Source: Bacillota bacterium (GTDB lineage: Bacteria > Bacillota > Bacilli > Paenibacillales > NBRC-103111). From it: DNA of 64,000 bases. Positions 47,461 to 53,190 of the stretch are shown one piece after another (position 1 is the stretch's first letter; each line of letters opens with the position of its first letter). A model generated the notes under the pieces. The model made no database searches. It was not told where the DNA came from and saw nothing but the letters and a program-made list of their open reading frames with translations. The DNA lies in the NCBI GenBank assembly GCA_023386955.1, contig JAEWIS010000020.1:3916-67915 (forward strand), written 5' to 3'. The translations under genes and the position numbers were made by a program.

Positions 47461-49806
47461 TCACACGCTTTTGCGGCTCGCCTCTTGCTCCTGCTCCTGC
47501 AAAGGAATGGAAATAACCATTTGGGTACCCGGACGGGGGAGATCAACCATTTTCAGCGAACCCTGCATCAGCAAAATACGTCCTTTCATTTGTTCCATTC
47601 CAATCCCGGACCCGCCGATTTCCCGCGATCCCGGTTCCATAGGCCGGATGCCAATACCGTCGTCCTCGTAGATGAGTTGGAAGTGCTGGGACGTAGAAGT
47701 CAACCGGAAGCTCACTTTGGAGGCTTGCGAATGTTTTTTGGCATTGTTCAGCAGCTCCTGGACAATCCGCAGCAGATGCCGTTTGGTGGTCAAGGACTCC
47801 TGCTCTACCCGTCCCGCTCCACTCTCCGGTTCAAAATGGATATGGAACGCAGCTACATACGCTTCCTTCTCCAGATATTGCCGCAGCGTGCCAATCAGCC
47901 CGATCTCACGGAGCAGATGGGGATTCAGCTCAAAGCAGCTTTGGCGCAGGCTGGCGTTAATCAGATCGACAAACTTGAGGATATTGTCCAGATGCTCCTT
48001 ATCCTCCCGGTTCATTACATACTTGTCCATTAAACCGGAAAACCGCCGTTTTAAGAAAAATAAATCCTGCATCGTCGTATCATGCAAATCCGAAGCAATC
48101 CGGATACGTTCTTCCTCCTGCAATTCAAACATGACCTTGCGGAACCATTGAAACTCCACCGCCGACGTATCATCGCTGAATCGGGAGGACAGGTCCTGCA
48201 GCTTGGCGGTCAAAGTCCGGATCAGATGCACATTCTCCAGACTGACCTCCAGATAAGAGGTAATCAAGCCCAGCCATTGCTGTTCCTCCCGGCTCAAGAG
48301 AACATTGGTGCGTTTGCGGGTCATCACCAGATAGTTTGTAGACTCCTCCGTCCGGCTGATCTCCATGCACGTATAACGTTCACTTTCGCTCCACTCTTTT
48401 TGGGCCAGAATCGCCTTGATCTCCTCTTCATTCACCTCTCCTGCCGAAATGGTTTCCACACTATCCGGGTATTGGCAAACAATGGAACCGCCTTGAACAT
48501 CCAGGGTCTGGACGATATCCGCCAGAAAAATATCCTTCATTTCCCGCATGGTGGATACCGTACTCAGATTCCGGGATATCTTTTTGAGCGAATTATTGAG
48601 CATGGCCTTCCTCGGGAAGAAAATCGGCTCCAGCCGGGTTGTCAGGTATTCGGTGGAATATAGCATCAAGGCCAAAGCCAGCAGGCAACTGAAAAAAACA
48701 AATACAATCATCTGGTTGGTTGCGGTCTCCTGGAAAAAGGCCATAAATAGACCGGTGACAATCGAGGCAGGCACCAGAGCCAACAAACAGCCAAACAAGA
48801 ACCGCCGGAAGACCAGACCGATATCGTAAAGCTGGTCGGACGCGATCAAATAGGCAAAGGAAGCGGGAAAGAGCAACAGGAATCCACTGGTGTAAACAGC
48901 GTCAACAATAGAACTTCCCGTTACGATCATCGGCGCGAAAGAAAGGCTGACAATGGGCAAAAAAGAAACAAAAAGGGCATACCAAATCGATTTAATAATG
49001 GATGCTAAATAGGATCTATTTCTTCCATGTTTAAAGTAAAAGAACACCAAAAAGGCCAAGTTGTAAAATACGGTGATTACGAATAATCCAAGAGATGCCG
49101 TAGGCGCTATATCGTGAACGAATGAAGTCCATTTGTTGGAGAACAGATAGGGCAATCTGAATAAAAATTCTGCAAATGCAATGGAATAGAAAAATATTAA
49201 CATTTTTTTGGAAAGAGTGATATTGGCTTTTTCCTTGAAGAAAACAATTAAGAAGTGAAAAAACAGAATCGGCAGTATGGACAGGGATGTTTCGATGCTG
49301 ATTTTAGCTAAGCCCTCTCCCCTGATGGATGCCCCCTGGCTCATATAAGTAACAGCACCGGACAAAAACACGATAGCAAGAAGAGCAGCTGAAGGTGAGT
49401 TGGGTATGCGGATAAATATTATTCCTGCTAACAACAAGCAGACTAGACTTTCAATAATAGAGGTAGCATCATACAGTGTCATACCTTGATTCTCAAAAGA
49501 GATCAGAATAACTTCTTGCCCTCGTAATACCTCTACATTCTTATGGTCGGCAAGACTGCCCCAATTCCGAAGCGCCTGGTTTTCACCGGGTAATGTATTG
49601 TCTAATGAAAGAATTTCATCACCGACTCGAAGACTGTGCTGCCCGATCCCTTTTGTGGAAAGTTCTGTGACCATCCATTTTTGTAAATCATTTTGTTCTA
49701 CTGTTACACCTAAATATGGTTTGCTGACCGTCACAAGCGCCAGCCATCCCATTAATATAAAAAGAGCAGACAGGATAACGTAATTTTTTGTATTTTTCAG
49801 CTTCAT
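47461..49806 (-). CDS. ComP-like quorum-sensing histidine kinase
   Basis: The 781-residue protein has one membrane helix (8-26), a PDZ-like outer domain (to about 110, with RVGDEILSLDN), about eight more membrane segments to about residue 400, a GAF-like linker, and a HisKA_3/HATPase core with IASDLHDTTMQDLFFLKRR (His575) and LLNNAKKHS. Order, length and wording follow Bacillus ComP, which senses the prenylated peptide ComX. No comA, comQ or comX of normal arrangement is next to it. A divergent short ORF ending GDNWS is 84 bp away. Confidence 0.9.
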   Translation of the reverse strand: MKLKNTKNYVILSALFILMGWLALVTVSKPYLGVTVEQNDLQKWMVTELSTKGIGQHSLRVGDEILSLDNTLPGENQALRNWGSLADHKNVEVLRGQEVILISFENQGMTLYDATSIIESLVCLLLAGIIFIRIPNSPSAALLAIVFLSGAVTYMSQGASIRGEGLAKISIETSLSILPILFFHFLIVFFKEKANITLSKKMLIFFYSIAFAEFLFRLPYLFSNKWTSFVHDIAPTASLGLFVITVFYNLAFLVFFYFKHGRNRSYLASIIKSIWYALFVSFLPIVSLSFAPMIVTGSSIVDAVYTSGFLLLFPASFAYLIASDQLYDIGLVFRRFLFGCLLALVPASIVTGLFMAFFQETATNQMIVFVFFSCLLALALMLYSTEYLTTRLEPIFFPRKAMLNNSLKKISRNLSTVSTMREMKDIFLADIVQTLDVQGGSIVCQYPDSVETISAGEVNEEEIKAILAQKEWSESERYTCMEISRTEESTNYLVMTRKRTNVLLSREEQQWLGLITSYLEVSLENVHLIRTLTAKLQDLSSRFSDDTSAVEFQWFRKVMFELQEEERIRIASDLHDTTMQDLFFLKRRFSGLMDKYVMNREDKEHLDNILKFVDLINASLRQSCFELNPHLLREIGLIGTLRQYLEKEAYVAAFHIHFEPESGAGRVEQESLTTKRHLLRIVQELLNNAKKHSQASKVSFRLTSTSQHFQLIYEDDGIGIRPMEPGSREIGGSGIGMEQMKGRILLMQGSLKMVDLPRPGTQMVISIPLQEQEQEASRKSV

Positions 49807-49840
49807 TCATCTCATCCCCTGTTTCAAAATCCGCTATTTT

Positions 49841-49869
49841 TTGATAATCTAAATGAAGGACTATATACC
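49841..49869 (+). promoter_or_regulatory. Promoter of the short peptide ORF
   Basis: TTGATA and TATACC are exactly 17 bases apart, and the -10 ends about 21 bases before the ATG at 49891. The divergent kinase gene shares this 84-bp region. Confidence 0.6.
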
Positions 49870-49890
49870 TTTACAGAGGAGTTGTTGTGG

Positions 49891-50076
49891 ATGCAATCTA
49901 TTACTGTTACACCCAGTTTGGCCAAGGCTGTCCGCAATTCGCAAAAATGTGGTTTAGCGACTCGTGCAAATGATATGCCGGTAACTCCAGCGGAAAAGAA
50001 ACAAATTTCGAAAGTATTCTACAATCATACTCTCATTACAAATGAATACGAAACTGCAGGCGACAATTGGTCCTAG
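49891..50076 (+). CDS. Short peptide, candidate ComX-like pheromone precursor
   Basis: This 61-residue ORF has a good promoter, AGAGGAG nine bases before the ATG, and no resemblance to an overlapping gene. Residues 28-45 are polar and helical-looking, and the C-terminus is NEYETAGDNWS. ComX precursors are 52-73 residues, are cut to 5-12 C-terminal residues, and carry a Trp that is prenylated; one natural variant, as I recall, is YTNGNWVPS. The GDNWS ending beside a ComP-like kinase is suggestive. Against it: divergent orientation and no ComQ. I am unsure of the function but fairly sure the gene is real. Confidence 0.55.
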   Translation: MQSITVTPSLAKAVRNSQKCGLATRANDMPVTPAEKKQISKVFYNHTLITNEYETAGDNWS

Positions 50077-50291
50077 CCCCCCACTTGATTTTACCAAGCG
50101 TTGAAGGAAATGTCTATCGACCAATTTGCGGCTCTCCTCGTGCTTTTTGGGGAGAGTCCTGCAGCAGATTTTTTAGGCCGTTAGTATTATATTACTTTTC
50201 TCTCCTCATAGAAACCCGCAAGCTTTAATTCGGCGCTATACCACCCCAATCACTTTTCCCCTTTATTTATTTCCGCTAGTATACGTACGGA

Positions 50292-50366: not shown

Positions 50367-50921
50367 TTGAAACAGGCGCTGATCGTTGACGACACGAAAT
50401 CCATCCGGGTCCTTCTGACCAAGGCGCTGGAGCACAAGGGGTTCTCAGCAGATCTGGCTGCCAGCGGTCTTGTGGCCATGGATATGCTGAAGGCTCAACC
50501 CTATGATGTTGTTTTTCTGGACATGAAAATGCCCGGTCTAAGCGGCAAGCATGTGCTGAACTGGATGGTCCAGCGGGGTATCACCACACCGGTGGTGGTG
50601 ATTACGGCCTTTGGTACCGTCAAGAACGCCGTGGAATGCACCCGGCTGGGCGCATCCGCCTATCTGCAAAAGCCGTTTACCGTAGAAAAAATACACCGCC
50701 TGCTGGCGGAGCTGGAGCCCCCGCGTTCCAATGCCACTCAAGAGGCCAGTCAGCTGCTGGAGGGGGGCCATTGGGAAAAAGCACTGCCCCTGCTCTCCTC
50801 TGCCCTGGCCGTTTCTCCCGCCAATCCGGAGATTTACCGGCTGATGGGACTGGCCTACCGTCAATCCGGCCGTGTGGAGCAGGCCGACAAGTTCCAGCAG
50901 ACCTACGAAATCATGAAATAG
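50367..50921 (+). CDS. Response regulator with C-terminal TPR region
   Basis: The 184-residue protein has a receiver with Asp8/Asp9, phospho-acceptor Asp52 (FLDMKMPG), Thr80 and Lys102, and then two TPR-like helical hairpins (LLSSALAVSPANPEIYRL) instead of a DNA-binding domain. It probably acts by protein contact. The start is TTG after GGGAGGA. It is followed by a soluble kinase 50 bp on and a diguanylate cyclase, so all three may be one signalling unit. Confidence 0.88.
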   Translation: MKQALIVDDTKSIRVLLTKALEHKGFSADLAASGLVAMDMLKAQPYDVVFLDMKMPGLSGKHVLNWMVQRGITTPVVVITAFGTVKNAVECTRLGASAYLQKPFTVEKIHRLLAELEPPRSNATQEASQLLEGGHWEKALPLLSSALAVSPANPEIYRLMGLAYRQSGRVEQADKFQQTYEIMK

Positions 50922-50971
50922 CCACCCCTATTACAGATTGGGTGTAAGCAACTAGAAAAGGAGTTTCTGTT

Positions 50972-52162
50972 ATGGATTCACGTTTACCGCGAGAGCGTGT
51001 TGTCCGGCAGGCGGAGGAACTGGCCCGGAACAGCGCGCTGCAAGGGATATTCCAGCTTCTGCCCTACCTGGTGCTGGTCCTCAATAAACAACGCCAGATT
51101 ATTTATTCCAACAACGGCCTGCTTCAGGTGCTGGGGATTGTGCCGCTTCACGAACGGTTGGGCTGCCGGCCCGGCGAGATGCTCCGCTGCATCCATTCCT
51201 GCAAAACCCCAGGGGGCTGCGGCACAACCGCCTATTGCACAGTATGCGGGGCCAACACAGCTATTCTTGAGGTGCAGCAGACCGGACAGCCCGTCTACCG
51301 GGAATGTCTCCTGACCATCTCTGCAGACGGACAGCATACAGAGAGCCATGAGCTTTCGGTTCATGCTATGCCGGCAGGCCAGTCCAACCCGGATGCCATC
51401 CTTTTTATGATCCGCGACATCAGCGAGGAAAAACGCAAGAAGGTGCTGGAGCAACTGTTTCTTCATGATTTGTTGAACAGTGCAGGTGCAGCCAGGGGAT
51501 TTATGGAGCTGACCCATATGACAGAGGACCTGCCCCAGCTCCAGGAGCTGTGCGGCTGTGCCAAGGATGCCGTCGAGGTGATTATCGGGGAAATTGAAAA
51601 CCACCGGGACCTAATCCATGCGGAAAAAGGGGAGTTGGACGTGAGCCCGGAGCCCGTCCACCTGAATGGCCTGATCCGTGCCGTTGCGGATTCGGTGCAG
51701 AATGCGGCGGAGCATGCGGTGGATATCCGGTTGGATTGTGAGGAGAAGCTTGTTGTGGTGAGCGACCCCATCCTCCTTCGCAGAGTGGTCAACAATATGG
51801 TGAAGAACGCCGCCGGGGAGCAACCGATCCGCATCAGCACTTGCAGACAGGGGAACAGCATCGCTATTGAAGTGCATAACGGGATATGTATGCCTACGGA
51901 GATACAGCTCCAGGTTTTCAAACGCTCCTTCAGCACAAAGGGAGAGGGCCGCGGCTACGGGACGTATGGTATGAAGCTGTTCGGAGAGAGGTATTTGAGA
52001 GGGGAAGTCCGGTTTATTTCCAGTCCTGAATCGGGAACGCTGTTCACTTTTATCCTTCCCGCAGACTACCGACAATCCCAGGGAAGCGAATCCCGAAGCA
52101 AAACGCCGTTACAGCACGAAACACTTCGAACGAATGGGATTTCTTACATAAACCAGATGTAG
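50972..52162 (+). CDS. Soluble histidine kinase with Cys-rich PAS domain
   Basis: The 396-residue protein has no membrane helix. Residues 25-150 form a PAS domain carrying Cys65, Cys73, His75, Cys77, Cys83, Cys89 and Cys92 in the pattern GCRPGEMLRCIHSCKT then GGCGTTAYCTVCG, which could bind iron, zinc or a cluster. The H-box is FLHDLLNSAGAARG (His165), and the ATPase domain has MVKNAAG and GYGTYGMKLF boxes. AAAAGGAG precedes the ATG. It probably phosphorylates the receiver-TPR protein. Confidence 0.88.
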   Translation: MDSRLPRERVVRQAEELARNSALQGIFQLLPYLVLVLNKQRQIIYSNNGLLQVLGIVPLHERLGCRPGEMLRCIHSCKTPGGCGTTAYCTVCGANTAILEVQQTGQPVYRECLLTISADGQHTESHELSVHAMPAGQSNPDAILFMIRDISEEKRKKVLEQLFLHDLLNSAGAARGFMELTHMTEDLPQLQELCGCAKDAVEVIIGEIENHRDLIHAEKGELDVSPEPVHLNGLIRAVADSVQNAAEHAVDIRLDCEEKLVVVSDPILLRRVVNNMVKNAAGEQPIRISTCRQGNSIAIEVHNGICMPTEIQLQVFKRSFSTKGEGRGYGTYGMKLFGERYLRGEVRFISSPESGTLFTFILPADYRQSQGSESRSKTPLQHETLRTNGISYINQM

Positions 52163-52179
52163 AAGAACCGGATAAAGCC

Positions 52180-53190
52180 GTGGACCTCCCCTCCTCTTCG
52201 TTTCCAACCGGATGGTTGGTGCGGTATGATTTTTTTAATAAAGCGGGACGGGGGTCAAACGTCCTACTACAGCAAAGAAGAAGATGCCGGTCCGCCCCTT
52301 CCGGAGAGAAGCCGGCTTCCTTATACGCTGCGGGGGGTAACGAATTGATTGCTTTGCTGCGTTATGTGCCTTCTCTATATATCAAGCTGTTCGAGCATCA
52401 TCCGTTTGCTATGCTGACTATAACCGCAAAGGGCCGCCCGTTGCTGGCCAACGCCCAAGCCAGAGCTCTGCTGGAAGCCGGTTCAGATGGATCTGCGGCG
52501 TCCGCCCTTCTGGCAGACAGTCGGCTTCTGGAGAAGCTTGCAGAGAACAAAAGCTTCGGCGGTCTCGATATCTCGGTTTATCAGGCGGGAAGACGGCGGG
52601 AGTTCCGGATCGACAGCAGCCTTATCCGGGGCCTGTTCCGTCCCGTTTTTTTGTTGTCTGTCCAGGATGTGACGGCATCCAGCCGGCATCTGAGGAGACT
52701 GCGCCACCAAGCGACCCGGGACTCCCTCACCGGAGTTTGGAACCGTGGAGCCTTCCTGGAAAAGCTGGAGGCTGCCATTGTCCTGGCGGAGCAAGAAGGG
52801 TACACACTGGCTGTGCTGTACATCGACGTCGACGAGTTCAAGGAAATCAATACGGCTTACGGCCATGAAGGGGGAGACGCCGTCCTGGCCGGTGTTGCCC
52901 GGATCATTGCGCGGATTGTCGGCAGAAAAGGTGCTGTGGGACGCTTGGGAGGCGATGAGCTGGCCGTATTCATGCACCCTGTCCCCTCTTATACGGAAAT
53001 CAGCGGAACCCTGCTGGAGCTGACCAATGCCATCCGCGCCATGGACATCCCCTACAAGGGCCAAACCATCCGGGTGGAAGCAAGCTTCGGGGCAAGCCTG
53101 TATGCGGAGAACGGCGAGGATGCCGCCACTCTGCTGAACCGGGCGGACAAGGCCATGTACCGGATGAAGGAGGTCCCCCTTTTTGACTAA
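52180..53190 (+). CDS. Diguanylate cyclase with N-terminal PAS-like domain (GGDEL)
   Basis: The 336-residue frame has a PAS-like region (about 65-170) and a GGDEF domain with DSLTGVWNRGAFL, YIDVDEFKEINTAYGHEGGD and RLGGDEL at 255-261. The last residue of the motif is Leu rather than Phe; the catalytic Asp/Glu pair is present. It makes cyclic di-GMP. The GTG at 52180 has no good site, and the first 55 residues look non-coding; a TTG at 52345 after GGGGGGT is a real alternative. No I-site RxxD is evident just before the motif. Confidence 0.88.
   Translation: MDLPSSSFPTGWLVRYDFFNKAGRGSNVLLQQRRRCRSAPSGEKPASLYAAGGNELIALLRYVPSLYIKLFEHHPFAMLTITAKGRPLLANAQARALLEAGSDGSAASALLADSRLLEKLAENKSFGGLDISVYQAGRRREFRIDSSLIRGLFRPVFLLSVQDVTASSRHLRRLRHQATRDSLTGVWNRGAFLEKLEAAIVLAEQEGYTLAVLYIDVDEFKEINTAYGHEGGDAVLAGVARIIARIVGRKGAVGRLGGDELAVFMHPVPSYTEISGTLLELTNAIRAMDIPYKGQTIRVEASFGASLYAENGEDAATLLNRADKAMYRMKEVPLFD

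Follow-up and report, generated by a model that had tools for sequence, protein, structure and literature searches.

The window, by which we mean the whole stretch of 64,000 nucleotides that was analysed, contains a gene for a histidine kinase of 781 residues (P), facing a short frame that encodes 61 residues (X). The two genes are divergent, with a gap of 84 bp between them (49807-49890). The frame of X opens with ATG at 49891 and closes with the stop codon TAG at 50074-50076, and its product has NEYETAGDNWS as its C-terminus. These traits of the pair, together with the AGAGGAG site and the GDNWS end, had been picked out by the first-pass annotation and are all confirmed. The features of the locus are as follows:

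47461..49806, minus strand: P, ComP-like histidine kinase of 781 residues (open reading frame list, Pfam, AlphaFold2 model, family profile)
49875..49881, plus strand: AGAGGAG, ribosome-binding site of X, 9 nt 5' of its ATG (read from the sequence)
49891..50076, plus strand: X, ComX-like precursor of 61 residues with Trp as its penultimate residue (open reading frame, four database homologues, X profile)
50050..50073, plus strand: last eight codons of X, ETAGDNWS, the presumed signal core, with the Trp codon at 50068-50070 (read from the sequence)
50088..50116, minus strand: promoter-like TAGACA-17-TAAAAT, directed toward P and lying past the stop of X; TG precedes its second hexamer (consensus scan, conserved box)
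50130..50158, plus strand: hairpin downstream of X, a possible terminator, with no T run directly behind it (z-score -2.26 over 50077-50160)

The length given to the core would follow, by analogy, that of ComX as described in part of PMC5331326. Four database proteins are homologous to X; each has 61 residues, is 69-89% identical to it and ends in GDNWS. X had no match in Pfam at E 0.1 and none in NCBIfam at E 0.01.

In P, Pfam finds HisKA_3 and HATPase_c at residues 566-770. The sensor, at about residues 1-400, consists of a PDZ-like outer domain and membrane helices. An AlphaFold2 model from an alignment of 14 rows (mean pLDDT 71.5, pTM 0.47) begins with a single helix at the N-terminus, continues with a small alpha/beta domain (residues 34-103 or so) and eight to nine helices, and closes with the cytoplasmic part. 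Pfam and the model support the domain order of ComP that had been proposed for this kinase, the PDZ match (E 0.015) lying under the Pfam cut-off. A Foldseek search with the model returned histidine kinases, the best of which fitted the catalytic part (DesK, VraS); it was uninformative for the sensor. Neither a ComQ-like nor a ComA-like gene was found beside the pair, which is true to the earlier reading of the window, and no ComQ-like frame occurs across its 64 kb. Next to X, at 50367-53190 on the plus strand, receiver-TPR, PAS/HATPase and GGDEF genes stand in a row, none of them ComA-like.

Pairing and transcription of kinase and precursor

A first scan of named genomes gave 13 relatives of the kinase. 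With a 14-row kinase alignment (A2) as query and a match threshold of E <=1e-90, P is present at 147 places in 82 genomes, out of 104 in the family to which G001 (Paenibacillus sp. YN15) belongs. At most 10 candidates were scored per genome, which may leave some paralogues out of the count; 7 of the genomes surveyed for P and for the ComQ-like enzyme (Q) discussed below had supplied rows of the query. Ten of the 147 places, shorter than 1800 nt, were left out, and 137 kinase loci were fetched.

A divergent frame of 35-110 residues, within 400 nt of the kinase and with Trp in its last two residues, occurs at 116 of the 131 loci that have at least 1 kb upstream. The kinase strand of the same stretch gives 5 such frames, the two strands of a stretch 600-1000 nt away give 1 and 8, and the mean over dinucleotide shuffles is 2.1 (maximum 8). 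The divergent Trp-ended frame is therefore not there by chance. X was called at 122 of the 137 loci, which bears out the expectation that the frame would be conserved beside related kinases; a 123rd call, at L057, was false and was removed. As the calling rules demand a Trp in the last three residues, every called X has one. The Trp nearest the C-terminus is the penultimate residue in 95 of the 122, the final one in 25 and the third from the end in 2. An alignment of 115 X (A4), made of 110 of the 122, the window frame and the four database proteins, shows an invariant Trp, a leader consensus like MxxIxxSPxLxxxVxxLK and a middle motif LSxxExxA. Duplicates and frames with doubtful starts had been dropped from it (L090, L114, L129, L130, L135, L138, L162-L165, L169 and L185). 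PF05952, the Pfam model of ComX, matches 7 of the 115 weakly, at best with E 7e-4, and leaves the window X unmatched; by its own sequence, X is tied only weakly to ComX.

Two further observations concern what surrounds these kinases. At six loci (L158, L163, L164, L166, L167 and L174) a conserved frame of 56 residues, of the LNNEQFEYMF type, lies beyond X and divergent to the kinase, about 310-690 nt upstream of it, with its last Trp about seven residues from its end. Eight ComP-like kinases have no Trp-ended divergent frame called (L152, L153 and L179 of G026, L181, L186 and L187 of G004, L172 of G005, L174 of G055). Six of these eight have a ComA-like gene adjoining or stand in tandem with others, and it is possible that such kinases are receivers that have no signal of their own.

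The promoter first proposed for X (TTGATA/TATACC, 17-bp spacing) was not returned by a consensus scan of 49700-50250. The sole promoter-like site there is on the opposite strand, at 50116-50088, and, as shuffles of the interval average 1.3, this single match is not significant alone. It is the window's form, TAGACA-17-TAAAAT, of a box that recurs in the family. At 97 of the 121 loci with 120 nt beyond X, the box TGGTAAAAT is found toward P beyond the stop of X with at most one mismatch; the other orientation gives 3, the P-X gap 2 of 123, and mononucleotide shuffles a mean of 6.2 (maximum 11). The family form of the box has TATACA 17 nt before TAAAAT, at a median distance of 15 nt from the stop of X. 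Within the P-X gaps, TATAAT directed toward X is enriched (69 of 124, against 18 in mononucleotide shuffles) and TATAAT directed toward P is not (10 of 124, against 16.8). All this suggests that transcription of P starts past X and runs through it in antisense; if true, sending and receiving would be wired against each other. The box might also be part of a terminator of X. In two relatives a strong hairpin follows X (z -7.6 and -6.8). That of the window is weaker, and the sequence scan did not return it as terminator-like.

Joint variation of precursor ends and kinase sensors

Distances were computed between 134 kinases longer than 740 residues, that of the window included. For kinase pairs, not independent of each other, with catalytic parts no more than 8% apart, the mean number of mismatches in the eight core residues is 0.14 when the sensors are less than 0.10 apart (14 pairs), 2.54 at 0.10-0.20 (13 pairs) and 5.43 at 0.20 or more (70 pairs). 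Loci that have no Q, taken alone, follow the same course (0.5, 3.8 and 6.5, for 4, 5 and 24 pairs). Mismatches in the 18 residues of the leader also rise over these bins, from 1.4 to 4.2 and 6.1. Where distant sensors go with near-identical catalytic parts (46 pairs), residues 1-320 have an identity of 0.50-0.74 and those after 400 one of 0.92-0.99. Over 649 pairs with a catalytic distance below 0.35, core mismatches remain associated with the membrane part once the catalytic part is corrected for (0.32, reached by 0 of 500 permutations), whereas the reverse correction leaves hardly any association with the catalytic part (0.10). Over all pairs the association of core and sensor is weak (partial 0.043, reached by 21 of 500 permutations). 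The idea that the last residues would vary with the outer domains of the kinase holds, then, for closely related kinases, and weakly over all pairs. We take this joint variation to be the pattern of pherotypes. Within single genomes, none of 59 pairs of X is alike in the last three residues.

With a precursor called at 122 of 137 loci and ends that track the outer parts of the kinases, it is very probable, as had been surmised, that X is the precursor of the kinase ligand. X might instead be no signal at all, but a small protein with a regulatory role, or else an antimicrobial peptide, that stands beside the kinase by chance. It is true that an export signal or a protease site was not identified in X, and that leaders vary as well as cores. 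Yet the last residues co-vary with the outer part of the kinase and not with its catalytic part, and the whole setting is homologous to ComQXPA, as described below, which makes such a role quite improbable.

The ComQ-like enzyme and the regulator

A search for polyprenyl synthetases in eight kinase-bearing genomes returned strong housekeeping hits and one weak hit in each genome (two in G004). Several of the weak synthetases lie directly behind the kinase with a LuxR-type regulator (A) in between, so that the complete locus has X divergent, then P-A-Q; the divergent order, seen at once in the window as unlike comQXPA, is that of the relatives' complete loci as well. For comparison, PF05952 was run over 200 genomes of Bacilli, where it gave 14 matches above its cut-off and 19 at E <=0.01, and 16 canonical ComX loci were fetched. 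The P profile of the family finds ComP at all 16 (E 2e-117 to 7e-71; the ComP of L208 is split in two). The Q profile finds ComQ at 9 of them (E 1e-66 to 3e-37), the other 7 having no Q within the fetched stretch. On these matches, P and Q are homologous to ComP and ComQ. No NCBIfam model names Q as ComQ, and the isoprenyl synthase models match it far below their cut-offs. Both DDxxD and NDxxx are present in all 77 Q that adjoin a P. According to the parts of PMC5331326 that deal with the enzyme, ComQ requires these two motifs, and a change of N to D cuts its activity drastically.

Over the whole order, Q is found at E <=1e-20 in 166 of 392 genomes. Twenty loci were fetched across the order, the Q of most being a more distant one, and 17 of them run collinearly as Q-X-P-A; at two of these, L261 and L264, X is a Trp-ended frame missing from the matches of the X profile. 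One locus outside the family of G001 (L267) has the order X / P-A-Q. Four deep-branching kinases (L188, L189, L190 and L265, of G021, G027 and G028), in genomes with a more distant Q, have no Trp-ended divergent frame; at L265, A comes after Q.

The pair of the window had been described as a possible ComX-like system without ComQ. For the family this is unsupported. Q (E <=3e-51) occurs in 80 of the 82 P-bearing genomes and in none of the other 22, 10 of which have only matches of 1e-10 to 1e-13, such as ordinary prenyl synthases give. The two genomes with P and no Q at threshold, G015 and G083, are both of 4.3 Mb. This count rejects, for the family, a ComQ-free ComX-like system as a kind. Q is often away from the pair. 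It stands directly behind P at 77 of the 137 loci, usually with A in between (at 7 of the 77 no A was found there). Of the 60 loci that have no Q, 13 have no X either and 47 have one, either as X-P-A (15) or as X-P only, as in the window (32). Thirty-seven genomes carry a Q-less X-P pair. Q is elsewhere in 35 of them, sometimes a few kb away, and 28 have exactly one Q. In 31 of 78 genomes, X-P pairs outnumber Q. The window's own organism would presumably also carry a Q.

The precursors of solo and Q-linked loci belong together. A profile built from 75 Q-linked X detects the window X at E 8.6e-7 and 42 of 48 X from Q-less loci at E <1e-3; with the last 12 residues cut off it still detects 43 of the 48, against 0 of 960 shuffled sequences. 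The leader of solo X is, by this comparison, the leader of Q-linked X. In a FastTree phylogeny the window kinase groups with those of two solo loci (L054 of G002 and L055 of G001), next to the Q-linked L056 and L057 of G002 and G001 and the solo L058 of G001. No fewer than 23 changes in whether Q adjoins P are needed on the kinase tree, which makes the linkage of Q loose.

Loose linkage, with Q and A missing beside 32 of the 47 Q-less pairs and beside that of the window, would also be found if solo X acted on its kinase unmodified and Q modified only the X that adjoins it. This we think unlikely. The Trp does not vary in the alignment of 115 X (and is there in every called X by the calling rule), solo and Q-linked X have a common leader, and all but two of the 37 genomes with Q-less pairs possess Q. 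Moreover, Q is kept where its own neighbour has decayed. In Paenibacillus sp. YN15, the X beside Q (L057) has no start and no leader, only its end, DDNWY, being left; yet Q is retained (Ka 0.08, Ks 0.67 against G002), along with two solo X-P pairs. In G008, a metagenome-assembled genome, the kinase beside Q (L268) aligns in two end parts only, as if a large internal piece had been deleted, and beside that Q no X was found; full-length frames of Q and A and four X-P pairs that have no Q are retained. Both cases would fit a Q kept for other customers. The deletion in G008 is possibly an error of assembly, and Q may owe part of its conservation to a common history. An earlier reading had modification as either trans-acting or absent: with Q elsewhere in most of these genomes the former is the better reading and the latter is disfavoured. 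The passages of PMC5331326 on recognition report that ComQ of strain RO-E-2 accepts a Trp at position two, three or four counted from the end, and that precursors have no obvious leader sequence for recognition. This tolerance, with no leader consensus, is what an enzyme common to several precursors would need.

Decay of this kind, together with the 13 Q-less kinases that have no X, might suggest that solo X-P pairs are but non-functional leftovers of duplicated loci. Such an origin is hardly credible, given that the frame of X is intact at 47 of the 60 Q-less loci and that X and P are both intact in the window and in its two nearest relatives. Selection argues against it as well: in five close pairs of Q-less X, pN/pS is 0.11-0.37.

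Over 17 close pairs of X, pN/pS ranges from 0 to 0.59. The window X, compared with its two nearest, those of L054 and L055, has pN/pS of 0.57 and 0.61 (Ks >1.3), much looser than its kinase (0.17 and 0.21). The window X is thus a protein that is conserved and yet changes fast.

We therefore consider it likely that the pair of the window stands as a solo comX-comP module in a rearranged family of the ComQXPA type, with Q and A encoded elsewhere. X would be made as a precursor of 61 residues, the penultimate Trp of which would be prenylated by a ComQ-like enzyme whose gene lies at another place in the genome. A short C-terminal piece would then be cut off and exported, and would bind the kinase encoded opposite, at its PDZ-like outer and membrane part; the kinase would in turn phosphorylate a ComA-like regulator of the LuxR type, again encoded elsewhere. 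Comparison of sequences shows the recurring pair of genes, the homology of P and Q to ComP and ComQ, the co-occurrence of Q by genome, the two ComQ motifs in Q and the joint variation of precursor end and sensor; from these we infer prenylation, processing and export of X, the action of Q and A in trans, and a Q in the window's own organism. The solo X-P modules probably share one prenyltransferase. A bolder proposal, which we hold with some doubt, is that one ComQ-like prenyltransferase serves up to four precursors per cell, in parallel private channels, and that in each module the transcript of the receptor runs antisense through the pheromone gene.

If these predictions are right, signalling by Trp-prenylated peptides extends to a majority of the 104 genomes surveyed in one Paenibacillus-like family (the kinase is in 82), and 122 candidate precursors are now at hand with their receptors. 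They make it possible to ask by experiment whether one ComQ modifies many peptides in trans, and whether paralogous channels are kept separate in one cell. YN15, where the X next to an intact Q has been lost, offers itself as a test case.

Comparison with known systems

Two systems invite comparison before ComQXPA of Bacillus subtilis and its relatives. The first is PalXPQ of Paenibacillus alvei (PMC10853753), which in the portion of that article bearing on the system likewise combines a histidine kinase, a precursor and a Trp prenyltransferase of the isoprene-synthase type, PalQ. There, in contrast, PalX has an NHLP-type leader and a Trp as its last residue, the place where PalQ needs it. The window X has its Trp second from the end and matches no family, NHLP-type leaders included, in NCBIfam or Pfam; its membership of PalX was rejected. 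The second is the set of loci surveyed by Dogsa et al. 2014 (PMC4008528), in the relevant sections of which a hypothetical comX on the opposite strand appears in some strains of B. cereus and in L. fusiformis; Paenibacillus curdlanolyticus is named there as having a com-like locus. These sections place X between Q and P, unlike the present family, and mention neither Q-less pairs nor the order X / P-A-Q. Among the matches listed in a literature search that covered few subscription journals and no preprints, judged by the parts of those sources that were at hand, neither solo X-P pairs nor this order is described.

The family has in common with ComQXPA a short precursor with a Trp near its C-terminus, a ComP-type kinase with a PDZ-like outer domain, many helices, HisKA_3 and HATPase_c (an outer PDZ-like domain and many helices are described for BaComP in part of PMC9620489), and a ComQ-type enzyme with DDxxD and NDxxx. 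The LuxR-type regulator is there in the complete loci of the family, and closely related kinases display joint variation in the style of pherotypes, a term used in the relevant part of PMC4408185. The differences are those of arrangement and number. X is divergent from P in the family and Q comes after P-A, whereas canonical loci are collinear, Q-X-P-A, with Q before X. X-P pairs without Q make up 47 of 137 loci, 32 of them without A too. The Trp is mostly second from the end, in contrast to Bacillus ComX, for which the cited part of PMC5331326 gives third or fourth. At the window locus itself, X escapes PF05952, and ComQ and ComA are missing. As judged from these comparisons, the family is a variant of ComQXPA: it is rearranged, its receptor transcript would overlap the pheromone gene in antisense, and its solo X-P modules have multiplied.
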